NCBI RefSeq assembly: GCF_025698545.1
Contig: NC_068569.1
Coordinates: 6,262,001-6,326,000, forward strand
Length of the DNA stretch: 64,000 nucleotides
Direction: 5' to 3'
From: Gossypium raimondii
Lineage: Eukaryota; Streptophyta; Magnoliopsida; Malvales; Malvaceae
Shown here: in pieces, positions 9,820 through 40,655 of the stretch
Numbering within the stretch: the stretch's first letter is position 1
Layout: the number at the start of each line of letters is the position of its first letter
Translations under genes and position numbers: made by a program
The notes under the pieces: generated by a model
The model's input: only the letters and a program-made list of their open reading frames with translations
What the model was told of the DNA's origin: nothing
Database searches by the model: none

Positions 9820-11796
9820 AACAGATTGATGTAAATACCTTAATCCGTTACAATTTCTAAAATGAGCATATTGGTCTCCCTCTCAATAAAAAATACAAAA
9901 TAATCAAAATAATTATAAAATTTTCAAATTTTATATTCTTAATTTTTTTAAAGAATTCTAAAGAATATATAAAGAAAGTTAAAATTTTAAAATTTTCTAA
10001 ATTTTAGGACCTGCGTAAGTTAATTAATGATTCAAATTTATCATATTAAGGTATTGTATTTTTTATTATTATTTTGCTTTGAAAAAGTTTTCAAATATAC
10101 GTGGTTTCAAATTTATTTACTCTAACATGGAATTAGTTATATTATAACAAGATTTTAATTTTGACATGTTTAATTTTTAATTTAACTCAAATAATTTCAC
10201 TCGATTCGATTCAACTCGAATTTCATTTCACTTGACTCAATTCGAAAAAAATTCAAATTAAGTTAGAATAATAAAATAAGACTCGTCAACTTGATTAACT
10301 CGAAATTTTTCACTCGATTCGATCAAACACTCATTCTTACATAATATGAAAGAAAAATATTTATCCGATTTCCCACAACATCTAAAATATTAATTAAAAG
10401 GGCCTATGTGTGATACATAATTGCTGGACTGGTAAAATGTATTTATTTGCAAACCCAATCCGAATGTACACCTCTCAAAAGTTGTACGACATCTAAATGA
10501 CGATAAACAACTGTGCAAGCCATAGCAATGCTTAGACTAGAAAGAGGAAAATATAGACCAGCAGGGAGAACTTATGACAATGTGTAAAGCATACTTTCCA
10601 ACAAGCTTGTTTAATACTCTTCCCAGCAAGTTCTTACGAAGAAGTTGAAGTTCCATTCATCTTTTTTTACATAAGATTTCAGATATCAATTTTATATTCA
10701 AAATTAGAAAGTTTATCGATGTTTGACTTTCTAGTTAGATTTTCAATATTGACTTCATAAATAACACTCAAGATTTCACGTCACTTTAAGATCAAGGTTC
10801 ATTTCTTCAAGTGAATCCAAAGTAGAAGGTTCATTGAGTTTTAGTCAAAATCCAAAAGGTCCAACAATGTACAGTTCTATAATTTCTTAACACATAAGGA
10901 GGTCTCAGCTATGAACAATTAGTATTTACTGTTCAAGACGCAAAAGGAGCAAATCAAGAACTACATTCATCTTTCACCTTTGCTACCCTATGTGAACAAT
11001 GCTGATTAAATCATGCACCAAACTTGAAAAGAGAAAGAGAGATTAGCAGCTGGACATCACCACCTTGAGGTTAGTTCAAAAGGGTAAAAGGTCCAAATTG
11101 TCAGCAAAATAAAAATGACAAAACCATGGCTTCTGCATTTTGCAAGCACTTTGAACAAGCTCCTAGCTATTTTCGATGGATATCCTTAGGGAAACAATTT
11201 AGCTTGCAAACCAACCTATGGAGACTTTGAGGAATCCTGTGGCTAAGTAAAGACATGAAGGCTAACTTTGACTTCTTGAATGAATACAAATATGGGTTGA
11301 CATACAGGTTCAACTCAAGAATCAAGATCACTATCTGAATCGGAAATCGATTTTTTTTTTCTAGCCTTTTTTACAATCATATGCTGTAGGTATAAGGTTT
11401 ATAAATTTATTAGGATAGAGCATGTTGAAAGGACACAATTTGATTATGACGTATTCACTTTTCCGCTTTATGGAACAGATTTATTATTTTTGAGCAAGGT
11501 GAAACCTCTATAAAGAAACTTTTGTTACAGTATCAATGTAAAATTTATGTAAATATTAGTTTCAAACAAAGTAAGATTCTAATTTCATGCATTCTAATAA
11601 TTCCATAATCCGACATTTGATTCAATATTATAGTCTATTCAGGGCTGTTACAAGCTCGACCTGCCAAATTTTTACTATAATCAGTTAATCACTAGTATAA
11701 ATAAAAACACAAACAGAAAAACAAATAGACAACAAATTTGCAAAAGCAAGGTATGCTTGTCGAGACCCACACAACACTATGCATCGTGAAAATGAG

Positions 11797-12460
11797 TAGA
11801 GATGTTTAAACAGTCGGATTCAATTAATACTCAAATTGAATAGATATTAATCGAATTAAATGAAATCATAAAAATTTTAACTGTTAATTAAGCCGAAATT
11901 TTTTTTGACCAAAATAATTTCGGTTAATTTGAGCCGTAAACCGAATTAACCGAATTTTTTACATTTTTTTGTTTTGTTCAAATAAGTTTGAAATAAGAAA
12001 AAATATCATTTCAATATTATTTTTCTTTGCTTTTAATTCAAATAAGAAAGCAAAAATAACTCAATAGCAACACTAATTTTGAGTTTGACTTTAAGGCTTC
12101 TTTCTTTTGCTCTTTTTATTTTTAGTTTAAAATATAAAATATATTATGATTTTAATCTCATTATAATAATTTGTATAAGTTCAATCCGTTTTAAGCGCAT
12201 TCTTTAATTTTTATATTTTGAGCTTATATAATATATCAGACCTATCTAATATATTGGGTCTATAATATTTTATTATTAATAATTTTGGTTAATCGATTAA
12301 TTCGATTAATTATCTAGTTTCAATTTAATTAATCGTTGATCAAAATTTTAAAAAAATCTTAACCGATCCCCAACCAAATTAAATTTAACGGTTGACTAAT
12401 TAATTGAAATAATTTGGTTCGTCAATTAATTCGGTTAAAACCAAATTATGCGCACCCCTA
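11797..12460. mobile_element. hAT-like MITE present only in copy 1
   Basis: The right end reads GCGCACCCCTA and the left end TAGAGATGTTTAAAC, a diverged inverted repeat. The interior is rich in complementary AATTAACCGAATT and TTCGGTTAATT stretches. The paralogous site in copy 2 (about 28950, AATGAGATCTAATCAAAG) and the older paralogue near 19055 (AATGAGCCCTAGGCAAAG) lack it. The insertion is thus specific to copy 1. A target duplication is not evident. Confidence 0.6.
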
Positions 12461-13639
12461 ACTAAGCAAAGATATGCACAACATAAATAACACTTATAGT
12501 AGCCAAAAATAAAAGTGTAACTATAGAGAGTAAACCTTATTATACGCAACCTGGTAAACCGAGTCATTCCACCAAACATCTAAAGTACATGAACCTTTTA
12601 ATAATGTGAATCAAGCAAATACACGTAGATAAAATAACTCATAAAAAGTGACGTGTTAGCTCCAACCCGAAGACGCCAATTGTCCATAAGAATTATGTCC
12701 GCCTCTATAATTAAGATTTAGGTTCATGTCTCCATAAAAAATGTGACCGCTTATCTACCGGAAACCATAGTAAAAACATGAGTTCTTCTTTCTCAACAAA
12801 GAACCTTTACTTCAATCTTTATGATCTTTGATAGTTCTTATGGCTTTCAAGAAATTCCATGCTATTTGCATGCACGCAAGACAACAAGGTCAGTCAAGCT
12901 AGCTTACCTTTCTTATGAAACTCCACCTAGCTCAAGGACACCAACAATATATAGGATAACTAGATTGAATCTTGCATTCACTACAATGGTGATTTAAGAT
13001 AGGTACAACCATTCTTTCACTGATCCAAACGAAAAACACTTTCAGTCAAATCTCTGCCTTTAACTCACTACCATTTTCCTAGATTCAGTTATCTTTCCAC
13101 TCTATTCTTTTTGATTAATTAAACAGTTTCAGAGTCAACTAAATTGCCTGATGATGATGGTATTATAACTATGTATTTAATCAATTCTTTGATAGTACAA
13201 AACAATGGAAACTAATCATGTCTTCGAAAGCTCAAACCCGTTAAAAGGAAAGACAAAACTTGTCTTATGTCCGATGAATGCCCTGAAAGAAAGAAACTAC
13301 TAGTTTTATTTGCTTTCTTCAATTGATCCAATATAAAATGGAATTGTCAAATTGGGATAAACTGTCCTTATTGCATATTAATATCAGGATTCCAAACCCT
13401 ATAGAAGATATTTCATCATGTCAATTTAACTACGAAACCAAGGAGTAATTTCTTCCCATTCCATTTAGAACCTGTTTTTTTAGATCGGTAGTAACAGAAA
13501 TAGGAATTCGGTTCATATCATGTAAAAAATCCAATTATGTGAGGAAATACGCATGCTCAACGCTGCATAAATTAAGTTCAGGAAACAATGTCCCCACCTG
13601 GTTGTTCGAACTAAAACGATATTAGCGCACAGGACTGCT

Positions 13640-13890
13640 CTATACAGAGTCAAGTATGGTGCTTTAGTGCCATATGGTATATCTATCTGGACCATTATAA
13701 ACATGCCATGCTTGGCACAATAGACTTTGGTGCCATATGGTATAGCTATCTTCACCATTATAACCCTGCCATATTTGGCACAAAAGACAGATTCACAGAC
13801 AGCAAAAGTTACCTAATAGACACATGATATAATTCATGAAAAATTTGCCTAATAAACATGCCATACTTGGCACAAAAGACAGATACAAAT
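13640..13890. repeat. Cluster of near-palindromic GCCATA...TGGCAC repeats
   Basis: Repeated motifs GTGCCATATGGTAT and CATGCCATACTTGGCAC alternate with ACCATTATAA linkers. The same cluster occurs at about 16905-17400, 30255-30490 and 31890-32350. The repeats produce minus-strand ORFs with recurring IPYGTK and AKxGMFIMV strings. Those are translations of the repeat rather than a protein family. Confidence 0.6.
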
Positions 13891-14879
13891 ACTTGGAGAA
13901 GATATTTGATATTAAGACTTTTTATCATCAGCTCCTTTACAAGGACGAAGTTTCAATGCCAAAAACAATTGCCTTTTTTAACTTTAAAGATAGACACAGA
14001 CAGGAATAGCTGGTTTCAAACGCCCTATATATATGATGTTGTGCTACACTTGTATCATCAAAGTTCCACTACTTTGGCATTACAATGGCCATTTTCTTCC
14101 TATCGTACTGATACTAGTTCCTCAAGTCAGTAACAAAATGATAGAGGGTAGGTATTATGCAATCCCAAGAAATTGCAATGCTTTGCTCCTAGCAATGGCC
14201 TCGCATATCGGATCAGTGATTTACCAGATAAACTTACCAGTCCAATCACACCATGGTGAGCAATGAGTGTAACTGATGAAGGTGATGTTTATGTCATTGG
14301 GGAGATGAGTCCATCGTTACAGTTTCCAATGGTCTCAGGATTGCCTGATGCTGGAAAGGACTAGGAAAAAGAGGAGAAAAACATGGATGAGGGATAAATT
14401 TCCTTCGCAATCCTACTAGTTGTGTTCGCTTCCTCTCTCTATAAAGACTGAAAATGTCCACATAGGTTACCATGCCACCATGAAATTGCTTACTGATTGG
14501 ATTGATCAACTGTGAGTACAGTGTCACTATGAAATTGTCCATTCTCTTGTAGTTTTTCATGTCCTCGATTAAATACAAACTAAGAAGCTATGCGTTCTAT
14601 CAGCAAAATAAATTCTACAATAAACAAACATTTATCTGTAAATTAGCAAGAAATTCAGATAAATTAGTCAGAAAAGAGAGAGAGAAAATTATGTTAACAA
14701 AGGAAGTCATCAAATACACAGAACCATTTAGCAAAGTACATTCAAATATTTCTCATTTTGTAAAACAGGGTAAAATTATGGTAAGCAAAAAAGAGAAAGG
14801 AAAATAAAAGCAAGTAGATTTTTTAAATTTGTTTGATAAATATTTTTCTTTATGCTTATTGATGTTTTTATCACGTCAG

Positions 14880-17800
14880 ATTTCAGCCATTAAGCAAGAC
14901 GCTAAGCTTTTCCTACTTGTTCATGATTGAGGCAGTCCATGTGGATTTAACATGGAAGCTTAATTTCACTCAAAGTCCAACAAATCAAGCAACGTAATGT
15001 TCCATAGTCACATCAAGATATGTGAAAAAGTAAATTTTTATCAAAACTAAACTCATCTGAGAACCCAAAACGAGCAAATCTAAGAACAGCATTCATATTT
15101 CACCTTTGCTACAAAATTTGAACAATGCCGACCAAAGGGTAAAAGGTCCAAATTGTCAGCAAAATAAAAAATGGAAAAATACTTATTTAAATGGACAATT
15201 TTGCTTTCAAATCACCTATGGAGACTTTGAGGAATTCTGTGGCCAAGTAAAGATAAAGGCTAAATGTAATTTCTTGAATTTGACCAAATACGGATTATCA
15301 TTCAAATTCAAGAATCAAAATCATTGATCTGAAATGGTAATTGATTTATTTATTTTTCCTTAGCTTTTTGTCTACAATTCTGTGTTGTAGGTATAAAGGT
15401 TTATAAATATAATTGAAGAGCATGTACAAAGACAAAAATTGATGGAGAAAAGGTGGATTTCACTCTTCCACATTACGGATTACACTATAAAATTTGTGCA
15501 CCAAATGTTTAAGAGTATCGGTTTCAAACGAAGGTTTACTTTCTAGCATTCTAATAATTTCATAGTCCAAAATGATTCGCCAATATAGTAATGAAAGTGT
15601 TATTACAAATGGTAAATTTGATAGTACATAAACCGGTTATATCACCAATCAATTCACTAATTACTTAAAGCATGTGAATTTTTTTATTATGTAAATTAAA
15701 CAAGTACACGTGGATTGAATAATTTATGGAAAGTGACATGTTGATCTTAATCTAGAGATGCTAATTGTCGATAAACGTTACGACTGATTCTATAAAAGAA
15801 ATTTAGGCTAACGTGGCCGCTTATTTACCGAAAACCGTACTACAGTAGTACGAGTTCTCTATCTTGACAAACAGCCTCTACTTCAACCCTTATGATGATA
15901 ACTCTTCAAGCTTTCAATAATTTCCGTGCGCATAAGAGATCAATCAAATAAGGGGTCTACCATAGGCAAACAAGAAATAGTGCTATGATTAAGTATTATA
16001 CTTGATCCAATAAGGTCAGTCAAGCAAACTTATTTTCTTATGAAACTCCGCCTCTCTTACTAAAGTATACCAACAACATACTAGAGAATTAGACTGAATC
16101 TTGCTTTCACTACAATGGTGCCTCAAGATAGCCATAACCATTCTCCTTCTCTGATCTAACTTCTCTTTCAAAGAAGAAAAATACATTACACTCAAATCTC
16201 TGCATTTAACTCACCATTAGTTTTTTAGCATCGGTTGTTTTTAGCTATATGATATTTGTTCAAGCCTAATTTGATTCAATATATGAATTTAAAATTTTAT
16301 TCAAGTATACTCATATTTGTATATGGCCGGTAAAGATCAACTCATATTATTATTATTTTTAAAATATAATTATTTTTATTTAATATTTAATAATTATATA
16401 TATCTTTTATTACTATTATATATTTTTCTTTTATTAAAATTTTAAATATAAAAAATTAATATATCTTTAAATATTTAAATTCTAGTGTTTTTTTTAGTTT
16501 TTCATAGGATATAAATTATATAGTATATAAAATAAATGAAAAATAATATATCATAGACATGAAAATGTGGTGAGCTTGCTTGACGATATTTTAAATGGTT
16601 TTTTTGTCTAAATCCATTTTTAATCCTTCTTTTTTAACTATTTCAAATTTCAAGTAAACTTTCGAGTTTTAATGACTTTTAGCCCTTAAACAAATCTAGA
16701 TAAACTCAAATAAAAAAAATTCAAATAATGTGAAGTGAAATTAGCACATAGAAATGTTCACGATAACTCAAGTTGGTTTATACCAGCTATTTGTCATATA
16801 TTTTTATGTCATGCTTAAATATTTTAACTATGTCTAGTAAAAAAGTATATAATTAAATGTGATAGCAATGCCTATATTTTGAATATAGTTTGTATATATG
16901 ATTTTCGTGTCATATGGCAAAGTTTATAGTGGTCCAGATAGACATATCATATGGCACCAAACGCATACATACATTCCATACTAAGGGTGAGTTTGGATGG
17001 GCGGTACGTTTACTTGCGGTTAGTGTAAAAACAGCGGTGGTGGTGAGATTAGATACTGTAGCGATATTGTAGCGTGAGACAAAAAATAAGCTAAACGCAC
17101 CGCACCGCACCGCACCCAATCGCCCATCCAAACCCACCTTAAGAATATTCAATTCTACCACTATCACAAACATGCCATATGTGGCATAAAATATAGGCAT
17201 GCAATAAAAGTTGCCTAATAGATGCATCTTACCATCCATGGTTGTCCTTATCTTTAGAGTAGAAAAATGGAGTTTTTTTGGTAATAATATATGTATTGTA
17301 CGTATGATTTCTTTCCATGTAAGGATGCACATTGTGTTCTTGTGAGAATAAAATATTTGGAAATAAATCTGGCATACTTGGCACAAAAGGACATACAGCA
17401 AATGTTGCCTAATAGACGCACCTACCATTCATGGTTGTCTCTATCTTTTTGGTAAAAAATGCAACCTTTTTGCCTAATAGGCCACTCAAATTTTTAGAAA
17501 ATTGTAATTAGGCCCCGTAAAATTTTTGAAAAATTCTTACTATTATTTTTTTTTTTGAAAAATTTCATTAAACTCTCTTAAAATTTTTTAAAATTTTCAT
17601 TATTCTCATTAAAAATTATAATTAGACCCTTAATTTTATTTTTGAATATTTTACAAGAGCTCACAAAATTTAATCCCTAAGATCCGTCACTGCCTATAAA
17701 TATGATGTTTTGCAACTCTCAGTGTACCAAAGCCCATTCCTTTGACATGACAATGCCATTTTCTTCCTGTCATACTAAGACTAGTTCTTCAAGTCAACAA

Positions 17801-18200
17801 AATGATTGAGTGCATGTGTTGTGGAACCCTAAATAGTGCATTGCTCCAAGCAATGACATCATATATCGGATCAGTGATTTACCAGATGTACTTATCATTC
17901 CAATCTCTTTCATGATGGCTATGATGAAGTCAGTGGCGGCGATGTTTGCATCATCAGGGAAATGAGTCCATTGTTAGAATTTCCAATAATCTCATAATTA
18001 CCTGATGCTGGAAAAGAAGGTCAAGGAAATGGAGAAAGTCGCGGAAGAGGTGAATGCCTTTTCTTCTTTTTCTATATCTATTTCAAGCCTTCTTCAACAG
18101 AGCCTAAAACTTGCCGCAGAAGTTACAGTACCACCATGAAATTGATTCCTGATTGGATTGATCAACTATCAGTATAGCTTCTCCTTAAAATTTTAACTTC
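14880..18200. repeat. Older internal repeat, unit 2
   Basis: Diverged version of 10345-14600 in the same orientation. It lacks the hAT-like MITE of unit 1 but carries its own MITE at 16985-17139. About 16240-16760 is AT-rich sequence not seen in unit 1. No gene is recognisable. Confidence 0.5.
16985..17139. mobile_element. Tourist-like (PIF/Harbinger) MITE, 155 bp
   Basis: Terminal inverted repeats of about 20 bp: GGGTGAGTTTGGATGGGCG at the left and the complement of AGGTGGGTTTGGATGGGCG at the right. They are flanked by TAA on both sides (16982-16984 and 17140-17142). The paralogous position in copy 2 (31963-31965) is an uninterrupted ATATTAAGAATA, a clean empty site. The 3-bp TAA target duplication fits PIF/Harbinger-class elements. 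Confidence 0.85.
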
Positions 18201-18239
18201 TGGCTTTAACGTTGTATCATCCATTCCTTAAAAATCTAA

Positions 18240-19210
18240 CTGTTAATTGTTGGGAATGAGGTTAAGATGGTATATTTATTCAATGTAACTCAAAAGTACT
18301 GTAACCAAGCAAAGAAGCTTGGGCTAAACCAACCTACGTTGAACATATTAAGACTTTATTGATATTTGACATATCAAGGTCTATCTTATTGTCTTGTTAC
18401 CATTTTGTTTAAGAACCTGAAAAATACAGTTCAAAACTTGTAGATCATAATGATATGCCGATAAGAAGATTCATACTATGCTAACTTGTTAAAAATGCTA
18501 TCCAAAAGGTTGACCCAACAACAAGTAATTAAATAGGTGTAATCACATATGACAAAGTGAACAAGTTAAACTTGATCCAGAAAAGGAGAAAGAGGTCTTC
18601 TGATCAGGTTCCTTGATGTCAAATTGCTCAATTCCTTTCCATCTTATCCAACAAAGTAAAATATACAAGCACAATGCTCTTTGTATAATAATAGCACATT
18701 ACAATTGGCACTAGACAAGAAATTTCTTTTTCCCAAAAATAAGGAAACAACGATGTTTATCAATGTAAAGACGAATCAAATATAATATATGTAACTAGAT
18801 GGTCAGAATTCATATGTTAAGATACTTTTTCTTTCAGGGTTTTGAGTTATGGCAAAAGAAGGAAGCCCATGCACCAAGTAATCAAGTTTCTGCAGTATCA
18901 GAGATGGCAATAATCCCATTGTCCAACATTTGATTCAACAATATAGTCTATTTAGAGCAGTTTAAATAAAAAAACTAAAATGTGAGAACAAATAGACAAC
19001 CAAGCCTGGCAGAGCATGGGTAATCTCGTCAAGACCCACGAAACAAAATGCATCATGGCAATGAGCCCTAGGCAAAGATAAGCATTGCCCAAATAACACC
19101 TATAGTTTGCCAGTATAATACTAAAAATGTAATTACAAAGAGCAAACTTGTTCACCCAATCAGTTCACCAATTACCTAAAGTGTGAACCTTTTTACTATG
19201 TAAACTAAGC
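18240..19210. other. Non-coding, fragments of the internal repeat
   Basis: 18325-18560 matches 20360-20600 and 33060-33420 (ACCAACCTACGTTGAACA). 18930-19205 matches 11620-12600 and 28780-29090. The small minus ORF at 18952-19155 has no recognisable family. No gene is supported. Confidence 0.45.
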
Positions 19211-19218
19211 AAGTATAC

Positions 19219-20144
19219 ATGGGGGTGTGTAAAAAAATTTTAAACCGAAGTTAACCGATTCGAAAAATCAAAATTTTCTCGGTGTAATTGGTTTTTATTT
19301 TTCGATTTATTTGATTTATTCGGTTGATTTTTTATTTTGACATTTTAAACCGAATAAACCAATTAAAACCATAACCCATGATTCATTTGTATACCCAACC
19401 CTAAATTTAAACTTTAAATCCAAATACCTGTTAAAAATTAAGAATTTTAAAGATCAAACCCATTAAAATTTAAAACCAGTACTCATTAATATTTAAAACC
19501 CGAATTGGTAATTTAATTTTTTACAATATTCATTTTGGTTTTGATAATTTAATATATAAAAAATCCAAAATTATACATACTCGTTAAGAATAGTAGAAGA
19601 CATGAAAATTGTATATATAGCATGTAAAAAACAAATATTTTTGAGTTCATTAAAATTTGTTTGATTTAATTTTGAATAATTTTATAATAAATTTGAAATA
19701 AAAAATTAAAACTAATACGGTATACTAAATTGAAGAACGAATATAATTATCTAAAAAAATTAAAGGAAAAAAATTATAAGTACCTCAATTATGTTATGAA
19801 TATTTTATTATTAAGTAAATGTCCATCAAGATCAAGATAAGTTTGATGAAATTTAGAACTCTAATTTAATTAGAAGTAGAGTTTATTTCCTTTCTACTTC
19901 TTATATCTTGCCCTCCCAATTTCTATGTTATTTTACTTTCTTTGATATTTATTTCATAATAAATTAGAATTGTTTTCCAACTCAGAAAAAAAAAATCTAA
20001 AAACTGAGAAGCCAAATAAAATTTTCAATTCGATTATTTGGTTTTGCTCTCTAGGCAGATTCGGCTTATTCTGTTCACATAGATAATTCGACTTATGCAA
20101 TTTTTGGTATAAAAAAACCAAATCAACTGAATGCCCACCCCGTT
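19219..20144. mobile_element. hAT-like MITE, 926 bp
   Basis: It is flanked by the perfect octamer AAGTATAC at 19211-19218 and 20145-20152. The ends ATGGGGGTGTG and CCCACCCCGTT are imperfect inverted repeats. Inside are long AT-rich stretches with AAACCGAATAAACC and CGGTTGATTTTTT-like complementary runs. The plus and minus ORFs at 20034-20366 overlap the element end and are not genes. The 8-bp duplication and G-rich ends fit the hAT superfamily. Confidence 0.75.
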
Positions 20145-20359
20145 AAGTATACATGAAAGACATGTTAACATGTTGACATTCTTGTGGATCACCAAATGTA
20201 TTGTAGAATTTGATAATGACTTTAAAAGGAACAAAGTAGACATTTGGTTTTTATTCACCAAGTTCGAGTTTTCAGAAGTGAATTCTGACCACCAATGGTT
20301 GACCACAAAGCTAAGATTGTAGATAAATAGTACTTCTACAAAATAACTTGGAAGTACTT

Positions 20360-21037
20360 TAACCAAGCAAAGAAGCTTCGGCTAAAACAACCTACGTTGA
20401 ACATATTAAGACTCCAGTGAGGTTTTGACATATCAAGGTTATATCCTACTGTCTCAGTACAAATAAGTGAGCGATACCAACTTTTTAAGAACCAGAAAAA
20501 ACACAATTCAAAACTTCAAATTCATAAAGATATCGGCAAGTACTCAGAAAATTCATGAAAAAATGGGTAAATATGCTTATATGAAAATTTGTAGTATGCA
20601 AACTTGTAAACAAATTTATGATTAAAAACAGAAATAAACCTGGCACGCAAAGGTTGTTATAAAATTTTGACACAGTAGATTTCATTTTACGCTCTTACTA
20701 AAAAGCTCACACCAAAACCGAGGCCAGTATAATTCCAGGATTTCTACCACTCCCACATAGTGACAATCAGCAGTCAAAATCCATAAGCCCAACAAGGACG
20801 CCAATTGCCAACCATTTGTTAAGGGAAATTTTCGTGTGGATTAAGCAAATAATGTAAAACCAAAGTTGATAAGCAAATCAAAATTCCAATGTCTCGTATT
20901 CATAACATTTCTAGGGAACAGCAGAACAAAACATAAACTTGAACATTCTAAGTAAAAGGGAAGAAAAAAACTGATTTTAGTATTAAATCCCCACTACTAC
21001 TTTCAGTCCGTACATAACAGAAGGTAAACATATAAAC
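20360..21037. other. 3' flank of RPL10a copy 1
   Basis: 20360-20600 belongs to the internal repeat family also seen at 18325 and 33060. From about 20620 the sequence matches 34360-34797 closely. It includes the RPL10a 3' untranslated region on the minus strand. No other gene is seen. Confidence 0.5.
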
Positions 21038-22610: not shown

Positions 22611-22920
22611 CTTTGAATCTTTGTTCTTTCCACAAACAATAAAATTTTACCTGCGAAACAAGGTTACAAAGTCATCAAAAACTTAAAGAAGTCTTAAAAT
22701 GAAATTAGATCTGCGATGAAATGGGCGTTATAGTAAAAGAGGGTTTAGACAGAGGGGGGGTGAGTAGCTACCGCCAACAAGAGATGAGAAAAACCCTGGC
22801 CAGATTTTCTAGGCTTTGTAGAAAACATATAGGCGGGTCAGTCGAAATAGTAAAACTAATCTTGGGCCACTGGCAGTCTAGCCCAATTTCCTGGAATTAT
22901 GAATACAGCCCAGTTTAATA
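22611..22920 (-). promoter_or_regulatory. RPL10a copy 1 leader and promoter
   Basis: On the minus strand a CCTATATG TATA-like box lies at about 22825-22833. Site II-type boxes (TGGGCT, GGCCCA) lie upstream at about 22850-22920, as is usual for plant ribosomal protein genes. The leader probably holds an intron ending at TTTCGCAG (acceptor after 22651). That would give a final leader exon 22611-22650 before the ATG. The alternative, that CAG-GTAAAA is a donor, would leave no usable ATG exon. Confidence 0.5.
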
Positions 22921-24420: not shown

Positions 24421-24466
24421 CTCTTATCTCTTTTTTTTTCCTTTCTGAAAACATTTCTGCTTAGAA

Positions 24467-24467
<1 letters not shown>

Positions 24468-27266: not shown

Positions 27267-28100
27267 ATCATGTTTTTCTGTATCATGAAAGTTGCATCAC
27301 CGATATAACTCTCAGATGGAGGCATATCCCGAATGGTGGGCAAACAAGGGAGACCAGTTAAAGGGAAGGGAGAGGAGAGTGAAGAAGTGATACCTGTGGC
27401 TTTACATCCATTACCTTACCCCTCTTCATTAGAAAATGCGACAGTTAGGGAGAATCAGCATCAGGTACTGATGCAATCCACCAAATCCTTTTGTCTGATG
27501 ATTTTGGTCTCTTAGGGGAAAAAACCAAAATGACTGATCAGATTTAGAGCTCATAATGCATAAAGACTCCAAGAGAGAGCTTGCACTTGATTAATGTTCT
27601 TTTTCTGCCTAAGCAGAAAAGATTCCTCTTGGTTTTGGCTCTTTTATGTGCAAATGAATGACTTATCAATCAACAGCATTTCCTTGTGATTTACAGGCAT
27701 TTAATGCAGGCTCATGTATCACTTTACTATCTCTTCATCCAAATGCTGCCTTAAAAAATAGCATAGCAGTTAAAACATTTGATTAAAATTTGATAGTTCC
27801 TTAGTTGACAGTCTACATACGGTGCCTTGGCTTCCAAATGAAAGCCGCACAGTCCTTTGCGTAATGACATATCAATCCGAGCATTTCAATAGATCTGGCA
27901 TTACAAACAAGAAAAAACCAATTAAAAAGAAAAAGGGAAAGAGGTGTTATGAAACAAAGAGGATGGTCTAAGTGTCTAAGATGGTATGCATAAGCTTACT
28001 GTTCCAGCAAAGCGACTTAAGGAAAAATAGTTCCATTTCAAATTGTGTTTATAAACAGTATGTTTAAATTCATCTAAAATATAATGCAGAAGGGTATGCC
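27267..28100. other. Junction spacer between duplication copies
   Basis: I found no counterpart in the window for most of it. The plus ORF at 27333-27515 has no recognisable family. It may be DNA that lay left of the original unit, or filler inserted at the junction. Confidence 0.4.
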
Positions 28101-30821
28101 TAGCCTACAAGTATCTCTAAAACATCTATTCAACTTAATGCAGCTTGGAAGAAAAATGTTTGTCGTATTTCCCACAATAGCTACGATATTAATTAAAAGG
28201 GCCACTGTACGGTACATAGTTGCTGGACTGGTAATATCAAATATGTATTTATTTGCAAACCCAATCTGAATATACCACTTCTCAAAAGTTGTACACACTG
28301 ATGAAATTATCTACATGATGATAAACAACTGTGCAAGCCATAGCAATGCTTAGACTAGAAAGAGGTAGATATAGACCACCGGGGAGAACTTATGACAAAG
28401 CATACCTTCCAATAGCTTGTTTAATAAACTCTTCCCCGCAAATTCTTACGTCAGATTTCATATATCAATTTCATAAGCAAAACTAGAAGGCTTGTTGATG
28501 TTTGGTTTTCAAGTAAGATTTTTTATGTCGATTTCATAAACAACACTTTGAGCTTTCCCACCACTTCAAGATCGAGGTTGTCCAAGTACATCCAAAATAG
28601 AAGGTCATTCAGTTTGAGTCAAAATGCAAAAAGTTGAACAATGTATAATTCTAGTTTCTAAGAAGATAGGGCAGGAAAAAGAAATTTCATAACACATAAC
28701 TAATCTCAGCTATGAACAATTAGTTTTTACTGTTCATGAGAACCTTAAAGGAGCAAATCTAAGGATTCCATAATCCAACATTTGATTCAACAATAGTCCA
28801 TTCAGAGCTGTTACCAGCTTGTCAAAGCATAGCATGCCAAATTTCCTCCATAATCACTAGGATAAATAAAATCTTGGAAAAGAAAACAAATAGACAGCTA
28901 AACCTGCAAGGTAAGCTTGTCAATACCCGCACAATACAATACATCTTGGAAATGAGATCTAATCAAAGTTATGCACAACCCAAATAACGCTTATAGTAGC
29001 CAATATAGTGATAAAAGAGTAATTACAAAGAGTAAAATTATGTTATGCGAAGTGATTAAAAGAGTCATTCTACCAATTATCTAAAGCAAATCAAGAAAAT
29101 ACACATAGATAAAATAATTCATAAAAAGCGACTGGTTAGCCCCAATCCGAATATGCCAATTGTCCATAAAAATTATGTCCGACGCTATAAATAAGATTTA
29201 GGCTTGCGTCTCCATAAAAAAATGTGGCCGCTTATCTACCGGAAACCATGCTAAAAACATAAGAGTTCTTTCTCAACAAAGAGCCTTTATTTCAATCTTT
29301 ATGATTTTTGATAATTCTTATGGCTTTCAAAAATTCCATACCATTTTCACGTAAGATATCAATCAAATTAATAAGGGAAATACTGCAGGCAAATAGGAAA
29401 ATAGTACTATGACCAGGATGCATAGTCCCAAATTTAATCGACCAACTCAACTGATGAAGAAGTCTTATACTTGATCCAACAAGGTTAGTCAAGCTAACAT
29501 TTATTTTTATGAAACTCCACCTAGCTTATTAAAGGACACCAACAATATACAGGATAACTAGACTAAATCTTGCATTCACTACAATGGTGGTTTTAAGATA
29601 GGTACAACCATTCTTTCAGTGATCCAACCGAAAAATACCTTACAGTCAAATCTCTGCCTTTGACTCACTACCATTTTCCTAGATGCAGTTGTCTTTCCAC
29701 TTTCTTCTTTTTGATTAATTAAACATATTCACAGTCAACTAAATTGCCTGATGGTGATGGTATTATGATTATGTATTTAATTAATTCTTTGATAGTACAA
29801 AACAACGCAAACTAATCATGTCTTCGAAAGATAAGACATAACTTGTCTTATCTCCAATGAATGCCTTGAAAAAAAGAAACTATTAGTGTTGTTTGATTTC
29901 TTCAGTAGATCCAAAATAAAATGAACTTGTCAAATTGGGATAAAGTATCTTTGTCCTTGCATATTAATATCAAGATTTCAAACCCTATAGAAGATATTTC
30001 ATCATGTCAATTTAACTACAAAACCAAGGAGGAGTAATTTCTCCCCTTTCCATTTGAAACCTGTTTTTCAGATTGGTAGTAACACAAATAGGAATACGAT
30101 TCATATCATGTATGGAATCCAATTACGCGAGGAAATACGCATGCTAAACACCGCATTAATTAAGTTCAAGAGACTCAGATCAGGAACGAACTATGTCCCC
30201 ACTTAGTTGTTCGAACTAAAACGATATTAGCACACAGGACTGCTCTATACAGAGTCAAGTATGGTGCTTTAGTGCCATATGGTATATCTATCTGGATTCT
30301 GGACCATTATAAACATGCCATACTTGGCACAATAGACTTTGGTGCCATATGGTATAGCTATCTTCACCATTATAAGCCTGCCATACTTGGCACAAAAGAC
30401 AGATACAGATACAGCAAAAGTTACCTAGTAGACACATGATATAATTCATGAAAAAGTTGCCCAATAAGCATGCCGTACTTGGCACAAAAGACGGATACAC
30501 ATACTTGGAAAAGATATTTGATATTAAGACTTTTTATCATCAGCTCCTTTACAAGGAAAGAATCCATATAAGGAAGAAGTATCAATGCCAAAAATAATTG
30601 CCTTTTTCAACTTTAAAGATGGACACAAAAATGAATGGTTGGTTTCAGACGCCCTATATATATGATGTTGTGCATTACAATGACCAATTTCTTCCTAGCA
30701 TATTGATATTAGTTCCTCAAGTCAGTAACAAAATGATAGAAGATAGGTATTATGCAATCCCAAGAAATTGCAATGCATTGCTCCTAGCAATGGCATTGTA
30801 TATCGAATCAATGATTTACCA

Positions 30822-31850
30822 GATATTTCGAGTGATTTCAAGAATAAAAAAAATCAATATTTTATTATAAGATATTTTTTATTAATTATTTAATGGATAA
30901 ATAAATGGAAAAGATGAAAAGATGTTATCTATCAGTTTTCCATGTTGCCGTCGGCCATAAGAGAAAAATAAGAAGTTTTGAGCTTTATTCAATTTGGTCT
31001 TTTCCATCAAAATTCATCATTTTCACTTAAAAATCAAAGGAATTTTCATAGCCTCTAAGAGGAAAAAGTGACAAGAAGATTCTGGTGAGTATGAATATCA
31101 TATTGGATTCAAGAGAATTGAAGTTGGAGGAAAGAAAAAAAAATCAATCTAAGGCTTGAAATCATAATTTTCGATTTTAATGTGTCGAAAAAATATAAAT
31201 TTTGTATTCAAGTAAGAAAAAATATCTATTAATACTATTATTATTTAAGAATTTTACTTAACTATATGATGAATTAATCCAACCTCAATTTACTTGTGAA
31301 TTTATTAAAAAGATAATTATTTTATATATTGTTACTTGGAGTAAAAAATTCTATCTAGATTGATGTCATAGAGTATAATAAAATAATAATTAAAAAAACT
31401 TGGCATTAATTTGGATCGCTTGTTGAGTTTTTTACTCCATTGACATTGGACAGAATAATTACCCTACTAAAGGTCTGTTATTTATATCAAACAACAAATA
31501 ATATTTTAAAATCTTTTTATCTAAAATAAATATGATTTTAAAGGTATTTTTTATCTTTTGGACCCTTTTTATCATTAATAAAATAAACATTTTTTGGACC
31601 CTTTTTATCCATGGGCCTTGAACAACTGCACTTCAAAACAGTCTCAGGACCAACCTTAAACTTATTCTTCGAAGTCCCACCAATAAGTTTATCCTTAAAA
31701 AAACTACCCACCCGTTGGATCATTTATAGCCATATTGCCCTCCTCTTGTCACTGAACTTTCTTAGTGGCTCGGCCAACGTCTTTGTCATCTCTCCCATTT
31801 CAGTGGTCAACAAAACTATTAAGAGAAGAATCCATTTTGATGCATTCTAA
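30822..31850. other. Copy 2-specific stretch replacing about 2.6 kb
   Basis: Homology with copy 1 stops after GATTTACCAGAT (14227/30824) and resumes near 16870/31850. The intervening DNA here is unrelated to 14.2-16.9 kb. Minus-strand frames around 31540-31830 give TLAEPLRKFSDKRRAIW and MIQRVGSFFKDKLIGG separated by a stop. It could be a worn gene fragment; I do not recognise it. An AT microsatellite at about 31859-31882 lies at the right edge. Confidence 0.5.
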
Positions 31851-31852
31851 GT

Positions 31853-31883
<31 letters not shown>

Positions 31884-33419
31884 CTTGTGTGTCATATGGC
31901 ATGTTTATAGTGGTTCAGATAAAGATACCATATGGCACCAAAGTCATGTGTACATTCCATATTAAGAATAAACAATTCTACCACCATTATAAACATGCCA
32001 TACGTGGCACAAAAGAAAGACATATAACAAATATTGTCGAAGAGACGCATGTCACCGCTCATGGCTGTCCTTATCTTTTGGGTTAGGATGCAATGTTTTT
32101 TAAATTATTGTATCTTCTATATATGAGAATTAAATATTTTGATACAAACATGCCATACTTAGCACAAAAGACATAAAAATACATAAAAAGTTTATTAATA
32201 GACGCACCCTACTATTTTCTATCTTTTGAGTAAAAAAATGGAGTGTTTTGGTAATAATGTATATTCTATATATTTAATCTTTCCTTATAAGGATGCACAT
32301 TGTGTTCTTGTAAAAATTAAATTTTGAAAATAAATCTGACATACTTGGCACAAAACAACATACAGCAAAAGTTGCCTAATACACTCACCTTATCATTTAT
32401 GTCTCTCTCTTTTGGGTAAAAAATGCAGTGTTTTAGGTATTAATACATATCCTGATTTTTGAAATATTTATATTAGCATATTTAACATTAAAATTTTTAA
32501 AAAGGAAAGAGTCCATATATGGAAGATATACTACTGCCAAAATTAATTACCTTCTTTAAATTAAAAGATAGATATGGTAATCAATAGCTGGTCCCAAATA
32601 GCCCTATAAATATGATGGTTTGCAACTCAGTGCACCAAAGCCCTATTCCTATGGCAAAACATCCTTTTCCTCCTCTCATACTAAGATTAGTTCTTCAAGT
32701 CAGTAGTAAAATGATTCAGGGCATGTGTTATGCCATGGAACTCGAAATACTGCATTGCTCCAAGCAATGACATCACATATCGGATTAGTGACTTACCAGA
32801 TGTACTTATCACTCCATGCTCTTTCATGATGGCGATGTTTGCATCATCAGGGAGATGAGTCCACTGTTACAGTTTTCAGTGATCTTAGAATTATCTGATG
32901 CTGGAGAAGTAGTTCAAGGAAAGGGAGAAAGACCTGGAAGAGGTCTCAGTCCTAGAATGTGTTTTCTTCCTCTTCTTCTTCCATAGCACGCCTTTTTCAA
33001 CAGAGACTGAAACTTGCCACAGAGGTTACTTTGCCACCATGAAATTGCTTCCTGGTTGGATAGATCAGCTAAACCAACCTACGTTGAACACATTAAGATT
33101 TTATTGATATTTTACATATCAAGGTTCTATCCTACTGTTTTGGTACAAAATATAGGAGTGACACCAACTTTTTTAAGAATCAGAAAAAAAACACAATTCA
33201 AAATTTCAAATTCATAATGATATCGATAAGTGTTCAGAAAATTCGTGAGTAAATATGCTGATAACAAAATTTGTACTATGCAAGCTTGTAAACACCAACA
33301 AGGACATGCCAATTGTTAAAAATGTTGTCCAACTGCTTGATCCAACATCAAGCAATTAAATGGGGTAATCATACGTGATAATCGTAGTTGAATAAAAAAA
33401 GAAAATTACGTGTCAACAG

Positions 33420-34360
33420 TTCCACTCTGACTCCGATATGTTAAAGGGAGTAGTCTGGAAGACTTATAAAACAACTTCGCAACCGAACAATTCTCAATTG
33501 GTCTCACCACAAAAGATTCCTGCCCATTTAAGGTTTTTTAGCACAAATCATATATTAAGACACTTTCTTTCAGAGTTCTAGTTAAGCATGGCAAAAGAAC
33601 ATGGCCATATTGATAAGAACATGACACTTACATCAGTAAAATCAGAAGAAGTGCGAAGGACATTGGGTAGTCGCCGGTTAGGCAATTGATTGCGATTGTC
33701 GATACTTCCTAATGACCGAACCGTCTGGCAAGGCTTCACAAATCGCCCTTGGGCAGAATTGTGCCCAAAACAAAGATGTGGGCCATGCTCGTAAGATTAA
33801 ACCAAACATCCATACGACGAACATAGCAAATCAAGAAATTTTTTTTTTTTTCATTTCTCTTTTGGTCGGATTTTGTTTTTTGAAATTTCAAACTGTTAAT
33901 GAAAATTCGAGATTTTTAATCTTTAATTCGATAAAATAATATTTATATTATGATTTTTAATATTATTTACTATTTAGTAAAAATTTATTTTAAATATTTA
34001 AAAATATTAATATTTCATGTAAATGAGAATAATCTATCATTTTTACATAATATATAAAATAATATAATATTTTTGTATTATTTCCAATATTTTAATTAAG
34101 AAATATTTGTTTTAAATTAAAAAAGATAAAATTAATTAAAAATAAAATAGCTTGTAAGCCCAAACACGTTCAAACAGTTAACCCGCTCATATAGATTCTC
34201 TTTTCTCAGCCACAAAGACCATTTCTTTCTACGAGCCGCAAGTCAATATCCGCCTCTGAGTAAGCGGATAGTCACTGCCATCAGGGGAATTTTTGACATA
34301 TCCTTGTTATTAACACGCGACGTTTCAAAAGTAGAATAAAATTATTTATAATATTATGAT
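33420..34360. other. Copy 2-specific non-coding stretch
   Basis: Located between the internal repeat (ends about 33420) and the RPL10a 3' flank (starts about 34380). Its left part (about 33530-33610) still resembles 18830-18860 in copy 1. I see no gene; the ORF at 33712-33939 matches nothing I know. The rest is AT-rich. Confidence 0.4.
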
Positions 34361-34797
34361 TAAAAACAAAATTAAACCAAGTTTCAAATAAACCAGGCAC
34401 TCAAAGTTGTAATAAAATTTTGACACATTAGTTGGTTTCATTTTACACTCTTGCTAAAAAGCTCACACCAAAACCAAGGCCAGTATCATTCCAGGATTTC
34501 TACCACATGGTTACAATCAGCAGTCAAAATCCATACGCCTAACAAGGATGCCAATTGCCTAAGGAAGATTTTCGTGTGGACTAAGCAAATATCAGATGGC
34601 AATTTAACACTAACATGAAACTCAAGTTGATAAGCAAATCAAAACTTCAATGTCTAATATTTATAACATTTCTAGGGAACAACAGAACATAACATAAACT
34701 TGAACATTCTAAGTAAAAGAGAAGAAAAAAACTGCTTTTAGTATTAAATCCCAACTACTACTTTCAGTCCGTACATAACAGAAGGTAAAACATAAAC

Positions 34798-36585
34798 TCA
34801 AAAGATCCTGTTTGAAGGACCCATGGTGCTCTTCAAGTAGAGGCACCTCACCTGCAATCAAGACAAATTCAAACAGAATATGTAATCAGCATCGGGAAAA
34901 TAATAGCAAAATCACATATTTATGCTCTACCAAGAACACGCGTGTGTATGTTATATGCAGTATGCTGAAAGGAGCAATCAAGACAAATTCAAACAGAATA
35001 TGTAATCAGCATCGGGAAAATAATAGCAAAATCACATATTTATGCTCTACCAAGAACACGCGTGTGTATGTTATATGCAGTATGCTGAAAGGAGCAATCA
35101 ACCTAAACAAACCAAAGATAAGAAGACTTACATTTTGCCAATTTTTCTTCAACAAAGAAACAAGGAAATTGACGCTCATTTGCACATTTTGGAAGATCTG
35201 CTTCTCCTCCATTGCAACATTCCCAACAGCAACTCCCATGCATAGAACCTTTTTCAGCTGGAACTTAACCATTGCCTTTGTTTCATTCACCTTCGACTCT
35301 AGGGATTCCTGGTGAGTGACAAGGGTTGGGAATTTACCTGTGTGTGACAACAGCAAGATAAAAAAAAAATTCATGTCAGAACTGATAAATGCGAAACCCA
35401 CAAACTAGGATCTGCGACAATGCTTTAGGAGGGCAATCCAAGAACAGATGCTCTTATACAGCACTTGCCTGCTTTGTTGAGACCAGGACCCAAAAGACGA
35501 GGGATTTGCTTGATGACAGATTCAGAAGCCAGAAAGGCATGATACTTCTTGGCAAGCTTCTTAACTAACTTCTTATTCTTGTTTAGTTTCTTCAATGCTT
35601 CCACATCCATATAATCCAAACCTATCTTCTCTGCCTGCAGAACAAAGTAAACAATTTATGTTGGCCCTTTTTGACCAAAGTCCAAACAATACATTATATC
35701 AAATTACAAAGGATTTATGCTGAATATCAAAGTCCAAACAATTTAATTTGACATTCTTATAGGAAATATAAACAAAGTTTCACATAAGAAAGCTGCAAAA
35801 TCACCTCTTCAACGTGTTGAGCATCTCCAAGCATGCAAATCTTCATTTTGGGGCGAGGAATATGTGGAAGCTTCACAGACCCACTGAAACGCTTGTCTTT
35901 TTGGGGATCATAGTTTTTCAGACCAATCTGGAGTTCAATGGTCTCAGTAAATTTGCGCTGTTTCTCCTTTGACTGAGCTACAATGGTTGAAATAGCTTCT
36001 CTAAGCGCATCACTCTGAAGCTTACTGTAAATAAGAATTCCAAAATCTTTCAGGAAAGAAAATCATAAACGACTAGACGATAAACAACCTCACAAGCTTC
36101 ATAAATTTGTATAACGAAGGGTTTCGAGGCACCATAAACAGTTCAAAATCACAAAATGGACACCCCAAAACAATGCATAGTTCAAGCCAATTAATCTCAA
36201 AATGATTCCCCTGACACTGATGATAATCCAAATGCACAACTTAAATTTCACAATATAATCAATGAGACAAAACACTGAGTGCTGACGAAGAGTGAACAAT
36301 AAGAATACCTAACAAAAACGCCATTTCAAAGTATTTCACAGAAGAAGTTCCTAGCAGATTATCTTATAAAACACAAATGAAAGAATGATCCAAACGCTTC
36401 TAATTCGAGTCCAGTAAATCAACAGCAAAATTTAAAAGACCTCAACTCTGAATCAGCAACTGATTATTTCACCAATGAAAGTATCCAACAGATTATCCTA
36501 TAAAATGCAGATGACAAAAGGATCCAAACTCTTCTAATTCAATTCCATAAAGCAATAATCAATAGCAAAATACACATTACCTCAT
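34798..36585 (-). CDS. RPL10A: 60S ribosomal protein L10a (uL1), copy 2
   Basis: Coding exons 36581-36585, 35805-36024, 35469-35634, 35132-35337 and 34798-34851 join in frame to 216 residues, nearly identical to copy 1. All exon lengths equal those of copy 1. The third intron again starts with GC, here in the consensus form AG then GCAAGT (from 35468 downward). The fourth intron contains a perfect 120-bp tandem duplication absent from copy 1. Both copies therefore appear able to supply the L1-stalk protein of the 60S subunit. Confidence 0.95.
34854..35100. repeat. Perfect 120-bp tandem duplication in RPL10a intron 4
   Basis: 34861-34980 and 34981-35100 are identical, and seven more matching bases (GCAATCA) extend to the left. 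The unit lies wholly between exon 4 and exon 5 and leaves the acceptor and donor unchanged. It also fuses into an artefactual plus-strand ORF (34812-35315). Confidence 0.97.
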
Positions 36586-36900
36586 CTCCGAATCTCTGCT
36601 CTTTCCACAAACAATAAACTTTTACCTGCAAAACAAGGTTACCAAGTCATCAAAAACTTAAAGAACTGATAAAATAAAATTAGAGCCGCGATGAAATGGA
36701 CGTTACAGTTAAAGAGGGTTTAGAGAGAAAGAGGTAGTGAGTACGTACCCCGGCACCGCCAACAAGAGATGAGAAAAACCTAGCCAGATTTTCGAGTCTT
36801 GGGGAAAATATATAGGCGGGTCAGCCGAAATAATAAAACTGATATCGGGCCATTGGCAGTCTACCCAATTCATTTAGTCTGAGGCTTGGTTTCCTTAAAT
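36586..36900 (-). promoter_or_regulatory. RPL10a copy 2 leader and promoter
   Basis: On the minus strand, CCTATATATTTT lies at about 36806-36816 (TATA box), with a GGCCCGATA/TGGGTAG site II-like stretch just upstream. The leader layout equals copy 1, with a candidate leader-intron acceptor TTTTGCAG near 36627. It is similar enough to copy 1 that both are expected to be expressed. Confidence 0.5.
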
Positions 36901-37239
36901 TGAATTCGGCCCATTTTAGTACTAGATCTGTTCAGCACAAAAAACGTATTTCCCTTGAAATGAGTTTTTTGGCAATATGGGTATGACAAAATTGGGCGAC
37001 TTCATGTTGATATTAAAAATGTCCACATTATTTCAAAAGATAGTTAAAAAGCTTTTAAATTAGTTTATAAATTCGTAATGTAGAAAATAATTATAATAAA
37101 GTTTTATTCAATCTTAACTCAATAAAATGTTAATACTTTAAAATTTTTTAAATTTTAATGAATTGAATTAGCTATTTAATTGAGTGCTTCAATTTATTGA
37201 TATAATTGTAAATGGAAATATAATTTATGACCTATATAT

Positions 37240-37480
37240 TACAAGGATTTATTTTTAACATAATTGAAGAGTTGTATCATGCAAATATCGGTGAGGTTGT
37301 AGTATGAAGAAAAACTTGAGTCATGTATTTTGCTAAGAATAGTTAAAAGCATTTTGTGTGATAAGTCCAGATTTTGTATTTACATTTGGCAACCAAACCT
37401 TGGTGGTCTGCAAAGTTGCCTACACATCTTTGTTGATTCTTAATAAGTAAGGCCTGCAACTTTGGTTGCAGACACTCTTG
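37240..37480 (+). promoter_or_regulatory. Decayed core promoter of bZIP copy 2
   Basis: Homologous to 24180-24420. The CTGCAAC-TTTG-GTTGCAG hairpin is intact at 37454-37471, but TTATAAATA has become TTAATAAGTA, so the TATA box is gone. Confidence 0.6.
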
Positions 37481-37525
37481 CTCTTATCTCTTTTTTTTCC
37501 TTTCTGAAAACATTTCTGCTTAGAA

Positions 37526-37559
<34 letters not shown>

Positions 37560-38362
37560 CAGTGTCTTTTAGTGTTTGCCAAAGGCTTAACATACTTCAA
37601 ATGCAGAAACAGATTTTTCAGCCCTTGATCTTCTGCAAGAATATCATCATGTGAGTTCAATTGATTCCTCTTCTCTTTTCTTAAAAATCTTTTGATTCAT
37701 TCAATGTTGGTTTCCCAGAATCACAAAAATGTTGCTTGTCTCTGTAAATAGTTTGAGAAAAAAAATCTGATTGAGATTTGATAATTGTTGGTATCATATT
37801 ATGATTATTCTTTTTCAATTTAAACTAGTATTCTCTTTTATGTAGTTTTGGCTCGTTGTATATAATTGCACTGTTTTATTAGATGATTGGTTGGTACATA
37901 TTAAAATATGAGTACAGAAATATAATTCTTCAAATATATTGAAAGATTTGGGAAAAATTAAATATACTCATACTCAAGATGTATTCAAATGCGACATTCA
38001 TTCGAATCTTTGTAACATAAACCTGTTGTGCTTTAGAATACAAACAACAATCCTTACAGTGTTTTGTTGTTAGCCTTTTTAACTCAAATGATATTACTGA
38101 CATGATACTGAATTTAACTCAAATTGCTATTTTCATTTTTCCTAGTAAAAATCTGAACTTTTGGTTAACTTCTTCGATTAATCATGATACTCCAGGTCTT
38201 GCAAAGATAAAAAATTTAAGTACTTTTAATTTCTCAACAATTATGACTTGATCACTATATATATATATATATATGCGCGCGCATAGTTTATGAATTAGTT
38301 GGCAATTAAACTATCTGAATTTTTATTTTTTTTTGTATAACTTTGGTGATTAAGGGAGAATA

Positions 38363-39602
38363 ATGGGGGATAATACATTGGATTGGGCTAGTTTACTTGG
38401 TGGATTACCAGACTCTGATGAATTGATGTCACTGTTAATGAATGATGTCAAAGTTGAGAAACCAGAAGATGAACAGCCGCAAGAAGGCAGCAAATTCCTA
38501 GTGCAACCTACAACAGTGATACCACAGCAGCAGGACATTCATAATGTCGCCACAGATGTTGAAACTGGTTCTTCTTCTTGTCGTCTAAATGATCAGAATA
38601 AGATTATCAGAAATGGAGGGTGTTTAATTAATCCATTAGGGTTCCCATATAGGTCTCGAATGTAGGTTTTGGCTGCAGATGCACCATCAGGAAGTGGAGA
38701 GTTGCTCGTAATGAATGATTTACCTGTTTACAAGAGAGGGAGGAACAAAATATTACAAGAAGCCATTGAACAGGCTGAGCAGAAGAAGAGGAAGAATAAG
38801 ATCAAAAAACAGATATTCAGCTGCAAAATCTCGAGCCAGGTCTCAGGTGCGTATGTGTGTGCAGTAGTAGTAGAATCTAGAATACTGCCCCAAACTTAGC
38901 CAAGTTGTTCCATACAGTCATATCTAGAAGGCAGCATGTATATATATGCAAGCATACTAGTCGAAAATTACAATTCTTCCTTTCTTTTTCCTGTTTTATT
39001 AGTAGAGCTGAAACGGGAACTTAGTTCTTACGATTTTAATTTCCACAGATGTAACTGTTTTCCTATACTAAGGCTGCGATCTTGTTTTGAAGGAACGTAC
39101 AAGATTTCTGGAAGAAAAAGTGGAGCAATTGAGAAATGAGAATGCACATTTAAAGAAATTACTTTCCCTGGTGAGAGACCTCGTGTTTCTTCTTGGCAAG
39201 AAACTGAGAAAATATAGAATATTTTCCTTATTTGCTATGTATTACTTAGTGATTTTTGGCCTTTCTCATCTTGCATGATTTTATATGTCCAATGAACTTA
39301 ATATCCATATATCAAACTTTTCAAAGGAAAGAAATGCATCCCTCCAATTTATCAGATATTGTCTAAATCTTGTAAACAATCACCTTTTTCTGCATCATCA
39401 TGTATTATACCAGGGTTATCTCACATCGATTAAATTTTAAATTGTTTAAAGTTTTAAATTCAGACCGGATGCTAAAAGGGTAATTGTATTAATTTCTTCT
39501 ATTGTATGTACAGGAAAGAGAAGTGATGCAAGGGAAAAAGGCAAAACAGTGTTTAGAATCGGAAGAACTGCAGACATAGGAGCAGCTATATATGGAGACT
39601 AA
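38363..39602 (+). pseudogene. bZIP transcription factor copy 2, broken
   Basis: Collinear with bZIP copy 1 but with independent lesions. CAG became TAG at 38663-38665, stopping after about 100 residues. An extra A in the A-run at 38804-38809 shifts frame inside the basic region. A 44-bp deletion at 39277 removes all of exon 3 with its splice sites. The exon 4 homologue (39514-39602) has an in-frame TAG. Upstream, the leader-intron acceptor segment is missing and the TATA box is mutated. Exon 2 homologue is 39093-39170. The exon 1 remnant still encodes more consensus bZIP residues (SAAKSRARSQ) than the intact copy. No functional protein is expected. Confidence 0.93.
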
Positions 39603-40223
39603 TGAGGAGGTTTAAGCTCATCAAGATCAATGGTGGTGGTGAGACCGAGTAACAATATGGGATGACACAGTTTCATTTTTAAAGACATTATAGGATCTCC
39701 GTTATACATCAAATATATATAAAGAAAAGCTTTTTGTTTGCCATCAGTCGACCTGGCTTTCAAAATAAAGACAATCAGATTTGCAGTGAGCTAAAGGTAG
39801 ATCACGCTACTGTAAAGTTTTTGATAATTTATATATTACTATTGCCTGCAAAAAAACATGGTTTCAATTATATCCTAATAGCTAGAATCATGATTCACTT
39901 GGATCTTCAGAAAAGTATACAATGTTAGGAGCTGCAATAGTTTTAATCTCTTTTGAGTTCATCATTCAGAAAAGAAAGATATATATATATAAGCATATTT
40001 TACAATCAAGAGAGATAAATATGGCTGACTCAGTAATCAGATCTCAGCAGTAATGGATTGATAGAGTGCAAATGCTAAAAACAGCATAAACATTTTTTAT
40101 CAATCAAACTTCATATTAGCACCTAAAAACAGTGGCCAGTTAATGAGATTTACAGACTTTATGATCCGAAACAGATAAAGCTCTCGCCATAATAATAATA
40201 TCAGAAAATCAACATCAAATAAT

Positions 40224-40655
40224 TCAACACATACTTTGAATCCTCATCAACCTTTGAGAACTACTCCTTCTTCCCTCAGTCATAAGCGCTTTACGAGCTG
40301 AAGCAAGTCCAGTGGGAGCTAACAATGAATCAAACGATGAATAATCCATCCAGTCTTTAAGCAACTCTTCTTTACCCCATTTATCTGGTACCAAAACTCG
40401 TCCTGCAACCTCTTCTCGGTGTCTTTTAAGCCTTTCACGTCCCGAATCCTTGTCATTTCCATCACTGCAATGCCCTCTAGGAACCAAAGCTGACCCTTGT
40501 AGAACACCCCCATTACTGCAACTATAAGACTTGTCATGCAACAACATGACATCTTCTTCTTCATGTCCTAAACCAGGCATATTGTTGGAAACCCGGCGGA
40601 CGCTAACGGGCTTCGACGGATTATGATTCCGGGAACTGGGACTAATGCTAGACAT
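40224..40655 (-). CDS. BIC-family inhibitor of cryptochromes
   Basis: Single-exon frame of 143 residues starting MSSISPSSRN. Residues about 72-128 match the conserved block of BIC1/BIC2 proteins: GRERLKRHREEVAGRV, then PDKWGKEELLKDWMDYSSFD and SARKALMTEGRR. In Arabidopsis, BIC proteins bind photoexcited cryptochromes in the nucleus and block their dimerisation; that role is assumed here by homology. The frame can be extended upstream to an ATG at 40811. However, a TATA box (TTATATATATAA, about 40717-40728) lies between the two starts, so the ATG at 40655 is preferred. The last 65 bases are duplicated as a stub at 27202-27266. Confidence 0.8.
   Translation of the reverse strand: MSSISPSSRNHNPSKPVSVRRVSNNMPGLGHEEEDVMLLHDKSYSCSNGGVLQGSALVPRGHCSDGNDKDSGRERLKRHREEVAGRVLVPDKWGKEELLKDWMDYSSFDSLLAPTGLASARKALMTEGRRSSSQRLMRIQSMC

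Follow-up and report, generated by a model that had tools for sequence, protein, structure and literature searches.

Whether two genes copied together in one block share one fate, and when a copy that was lost was lost, are the questions raised by a locus within a 64,000-nucleotide stretch of Gossypium raimondii (the window), for which a preliminary description had proposed a large tandem duplication (10340..40288) with opposite fates for a ribosomal protein gene, RPL10a (uL1), and an adjacent bZIP transcription factor gene. On the strength of its genes and introns, among them a BIC-like protein and a DOG1 domain, the window was taken as plant nuclear DNA. Self-BLAST recovered two collinear, adjacent direct copies (blocks 1 and 2; Table 1), and the limits given earlier were right. 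As matches reached E = 0.0, they are not due to chance. The blocks differ in length (~16.9 kb for block 1 and ~12.1 kb for block 2), with many indels between them. An older repeat family is present inside block 1 as approximately three units (10347-14521, 15063-18545 and a partial unit at 18909-20612), which have shortened counterparts in block 2.

Analysis of the right ends of the blocks revealed how the segment was cut. The BIC-like gene that crosses the end of block 2 matches the cryptochrome inhibitor BIC2 (PDB 6k8k) over residues 71-128 with an E value of 5.9e-19, and serves here solely as a breakpoint marker. Because block 1 holds only a 64-bp tail of this gene, while the whole gene spans the end of block 2, the original right flank has been retained by block 2; the breakpoint cuts a flanking gene, as in a tandem segmental duplication. 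The 879-bp span between the blocks was compared with five other stretches on both strands, and none of the ten comparisons scored above its highest shuffle score, although one, against 33371-34386 on the plus strand, equalled it with a score of 34; no match above shuffles was obtained against either flank. A Pfam scan of seven ORFs from the left repeat region (10347-20612), two from the inter-block span and one at 33.7 kb gave no domain at the curated cut-offs for any of the ten, including the seven of the repeat region, and three weak matches below them (E 0.036-0.082).

Table 1. Coordinates of the features of the duplicated locus, as positions in the window
Feature	Positions	Strand	Basis or details
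Block 1 of tandem duplication	10347..27266		self-BLAST
Block 2 of tandem duplication	28146..40288		self-BLAST
Inter-block span	27267..28145		compared with five other stretches, none scoring above shuffles
RPL10a copy 1, coding span	21038..22610	-	exons 22606-22610, 21836-22055, 21495-21660, 21179-21384, 21038-21091
RPL10a copy 2, coding span	34798..36585	-	exons 36581-36585, 35805-36024, 35469-35634, 35132-35337, 34798-34851
bZIP copy 1, coding span	25366..26571	+	224 aa; exons 25366-25845, 26004-26081, 26195-26224, 26485-26571
bZIP copy 2, broken	38363..39601	+	nonsense codon TAG at 38663; insertion of 1 nt at 38804; deletion of exon 3 at 39276; exon 4 stopping early
Conversion-like tract 1 (promoter with leader exon and beginning of the leader intron)	24291..24747	+	partner 37351-37781; 6/429 mismatches
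Conversion-like tract 2 (coding exon 1)	25342..25812	+	partner 38339-38813; 9/471 mismatches
Orphan 3' end of BIC-like gene, breakpoint marker at end of block 1	27203..27266	-	64 bp; sequence comparison
Whole BIC-like gene, spanning right end of block 2	40224..40655	-	143 aa; ORF and PDB match

Elsewhere in the window, a second bZIP gene (55658-56768), which we take to be of the TGA type, has a DOG1 domain (105.5 bits) downstream of a partial basic region that stays below the cut-off (24.5 bits). An EMP70 (TM9SF) domain lies at 42916-43419 on the minus strand, with the ORF at 44427-45041 presumably the remainder of that gene; a PADR1_N domain at 61992-62336 belongs to a PARP-like gene; and the tRNA gene at 4527-4616 on the minus strand has an anticodon that is ambiguous in ARAGORN. 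A direct repeat of ~1 kb (62-1231 and 2949-3866) stands on either side of an ORF (2480-2872) that we assume to be ferredoxin-like and for which no Pfam match was found.

The two RPL10a copies, described earlier as intact, are each predicted to splice from five coding exons into a protein of 216 residues, and the proteins differ at a single position (residue 18, T/A). Copy 2 matches Pfam Ribosomal_L1 over residues 21-211 with 178.9 bits, while copy 1 matches uL1 proteins in the PDB, the best being the 217-aa ribosomal protein chain 9vtg_LA (E 3.5e-126). The coding sequences differ at 22 of 648 nucleotides, which after subtraction of the one replacement leaves 21 synonymous differences in ~135 sites, giving a dN of 0.002 and a dS of 0.175 (NG86). 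With one copy wholly released from selection since the duplication, the expected number of nonsynonymous changes would be ~45, against the one observed, and release of one copy for as much as roughly a tenth of that period stays compatible with the data (P 0.06). Both copies are thus under strong purifying selection, the pattern looked for in a dosage-retained duplicate. The word intact carries a caution at the level of predicted splicing, in that both copies have a GC donor at intron 3 and the form in copy 1 (GCTAGT) is, by the usual consensus as we take it, weaker than that in copy 2 (GCAAGT). Within at most 700 nt upstream there are four site II-like motifs in copy 1 and one in copy 2, with AAACCCT at -136 in both, these motif names being the ones that we presume to apply; such promoter divergence may leave room for a division of expression. 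Intron 4 of copy 2 also contains an exact 120-bp tandem duplication (34854-35101).

That dosage is what retained the RPL10a pair, as had been suggested, is a guess, and the reason for keeping both copies is a part of our explanation that we infer. In the relevant passages of a review on gene balance (Birchler and Yang 2022, PMC9252495), small segmental duplications are said to be poor in genes of multicomponent interactions, so balance would not by itself predict that a lone tandem copy of a ribosomal protein gene is kept. On those passages, balance disfavours the retention of a single surplus complex subunit after a small duplication, unlike what is seen here, while the decay of one tandem member that they describe resembles that of the second bZIP copy.

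The bZIP gene of block 1 comprises four coding exons, each with a length that is a multiple of three. A reading in which this copy is frameshifted at exon 2 was rejected: the acceptor ending at 25983 leads to a stop after five codons (phase 0), whereas the one ending at 26003 leaves the frame intact and places leucines 10, 17 and 24 residues past the basic-region arginine, a spacing that we take to be that of known bZIPs. Because this acceptor preserves both frame and zipper spacing, copy 1 is called open under predicted splicing, its leucine zipper being in register with the basic region. It exceeds the Pfam cut-off for bZIP_1 (34.3 bits against 27.6) and that for bZIP_2 as well, and its matches to bZIPs in the PDB are weak (best E 0.014).

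The copy in block 2 carries several disabling lesions. Its TATA box has changed from TATAAA (24382 in copy 1) to AATAAG (37442) through substitutions corresponding to 24382 and 24387; an 89-bp deletion at 38323 takes out the leader-intron acceptor; a CAG to TAG change ends the reading frame after the first 100 residues; the 1-nt insertion breaks the frame; and a 44-bp deletion removes exon 3. The preliminary description had listed the TATA box, leader-intron acceptor, frame, exon 3 and terminal exon as lost, and all of these hold except the last, which is truncated: it is kept from 39514 onward with its acceptor AG, and a 1-nt deletion brings the stop after 21 codons instead of 28. With its introns kept and these lesions present, copy 2 has the features of an unprocessed pseudogene and has probably lost its function. 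The zipper regions of copies 1 and 2 score 36.8 and 37.0 bits for bZIP_1, and 29.9 and 23.9 bits for bZIP_2, respectively. The opposite fates of the two genes, constraint on RPL10a and breakage of one bZIP, are therefore borne out, as is an open bZIP in copy 1 only.

Across 5048 aligned columns the blocks are 90.6% identical, and this identity is unevenly distributed. The bZIP promoter and leader (tract 1) and coding exon 1 (tract 2) are ~98% alike, versus a difference of ~13% in the other noncoding DNA of the blocks. Their scores of 309 and 291 exceed the highest of 1000 column shuffles (145), a test that takes no account of clustered constraint, and their mismatch counts were the same under four other alignment settings. 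Between the two tracts there are 81 mismatches in 390 columns, or 97-133 in 458-482 under the other settings. When the noncoding tract 1 was compared with seven other noncoding groups, with 24180-24290 (8/103), the BIC tail (5/64) and all exons left out, the latter differed at 400 of 3127 columns (Fisher p 1.3e-16). Synonymous sites behave in the same way, with one difference in ~84 sites of bZIP exon 1 versus the 21 of RPL10a (Fisher p 0.0003), and with exon 1 values of dS 0.012 and dN 0.014 by NG86 and dS 0.017 by YN00. Both tracts are thus far more alike than their flanks at noncoding and synonymous sites, as conversion tracts would be. A third segment, 21160-21427 (4/268, score 188), also lies above all shuffles, and as it is mostly RPL10a exon 4, selection may explain its likeness and we do not claim it as a conversion tract. 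Ungapped identity between 12882-14230 and 29477-30825 is 91%, versus ~86% in neighbouring matches, so that this is perhaps another homogenised stretch.

Since the synonymous sites of exon 1 are alike too, selection on the protein does not account for the likeness of that exon, and recent ectopic gene conversion is the best explanation of the patchiness. It is improbable, in our judgement, that the promoter, leader and exon 1 were instead held by functional constraint in both copies without any conversion; exon 2 is conserved as well (2/78 mismatches) and copy 2 still encodes residues ahead of its stop, but exon 1 has a dS as low as its dN, and tract 1 takes in intron sequence, a (CA)n run of 15 versus 16 units and a promoter that in copy 2 no longer has its TATA box. 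Within the first 381 nt of exon 1 there are four replacements, one nonsense and one silent change, a spectrum that, for six changes only, would be as expected of unconstrained drift. Nor do we give much weight to the idea that more than one crossover assembled the blocks as a mosaic from duplications of unequal age; the older repeat units towards the left of the blocks and the range of ungapped identity among collinear matches (80% to 95%) suit it, yet diverged homologous sequence adjoins each tract at both ends in collinear order, an arrangement that a second duplication would not simply produce. A haplotype duplicate assembled as block 2 is unlikely given the ~13% noncoding divergence, which alleles would seldom reach, and, as the flanks are also distinct (BIC tail versus whole gene), a misassembled haplotype or a copy collapsed and then re-expanded is very improbable. 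An assembly error at 27-28.2 kb is probably absent.

We return to duplication followed by conversion, to which as a whole, from tandem duplication through RPL10a constraint, bZIP copy 2 loss and later conversion to continued decay, we assign a probability of about 0.75. An ancestral segment consisting of repeat units, RPL10a on the minus strand, a divergent bZIP on the plus strand and the 3' end of the BIC-like gene was duplicated in tandem, with the right breakpoint within the BIC-like gene and the original right flank staying with block 2. Both RPL10a copies have stayed under strong purifying selection since then. The bZIP of block 2 would have lost function. Later ectopic conversion between the blocks would have homogenised the bZIP promoter, leader and coding exon 1; copy 2 would then have decayed further through the TATA substitutions and the nonsense codon. 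The data show the duplication itself, the constraint on RPL10a, the breakage of one bZIP and the patchiness of the divergence. Conversion as the cause of the patches is what we infer here, and so are its direction and the order of the lesions, both of them unpolarised in a comparison of the two copies alone. Counting against this account are the likeness of exon 2, the indels inside the tracts (five in tract 1, one of them of 24 nt, and two in tract 2) and the unexplained inter-block span.

The timing of the bZIP loss bears on the earlier suggestion that it was rapid. Differences inside a homogenised tract postdate the exchange whichever copy was the donor, so the TATA substitutions and the TAG codon would be young; the deletions of the leader acceptor and of exon 3 lie outside the tracts and may be older, and the 1-nt insertion, near the end of tract 2, cannot be placed relative to conversion. 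Exons 2 and 4 disagree: exon 4 (15/86 mismatches) is not distinguishable from neutral DNA, while exon 2 has fewer mismatches than neutral DNA (P 0.002), with a tract score that is not significant (P 0.25). The likeness of exon 2 makes a very early loss less likely and points either to a period of constraint on both copies or to a further small exchange. We prefer an early loss followed by partial refreshing, and rapid loss finds no support as a date, because the promoter, leader and exon 1 would have been homogenised long after the duplication.

Tandem plant ribosomal protein genes with conversion tracts are a kind already known from the sections of Devis et al. (2015, PMC4679983) that concern RPL9 in Brassicaceae, and the present pair is, on that comparison, a good further example. 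Those sections describe, for several species, linked RPL9 copies separated by 8-12 kb, some pairs having identical 5' promoter and exon stretches and a diverged remainder, a pattern ascribed by the authors to gene conversion. The start codon has been lost from one Capsella grandiflora copy, and one E. salsugineum pair is without a conversion tract. The likeness lies in linked ribosomal protein copies with homogenised stretches beside a diverged remainder, and the difference in that the RPL9 tracts, as described there, are in the ribosomal protein genes, whereas here the clear tracts are in the bZIP next to RPL10a, a gene with a broken second copy. No paper on this gene pair was found among the matches listed, from queries none of which joined RPL10a with bZIP.

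At this locus two adjacent genes of a single block are clearly subject to different selection, and neighbouring stretches of one duplication differ widely in apparent age. Dating the bZIP loss from its best-conserved exon would be wrong by a factor of roughly eight to fourteen (tract divergence of 1.7% versus 12.8% in noncoding DNA; dS 0.012 versus 0.175). More speculatively, and in our judgement improbably, conversion from the live bZIP may refresh the dead copy because a need for two RPL10a copies keeps both blocks in place. If this were true, the retained RPL10a pair would indirectly keep the promoter and first exon of a pseudogene young, and lesions would be transferable to the live bZIP.
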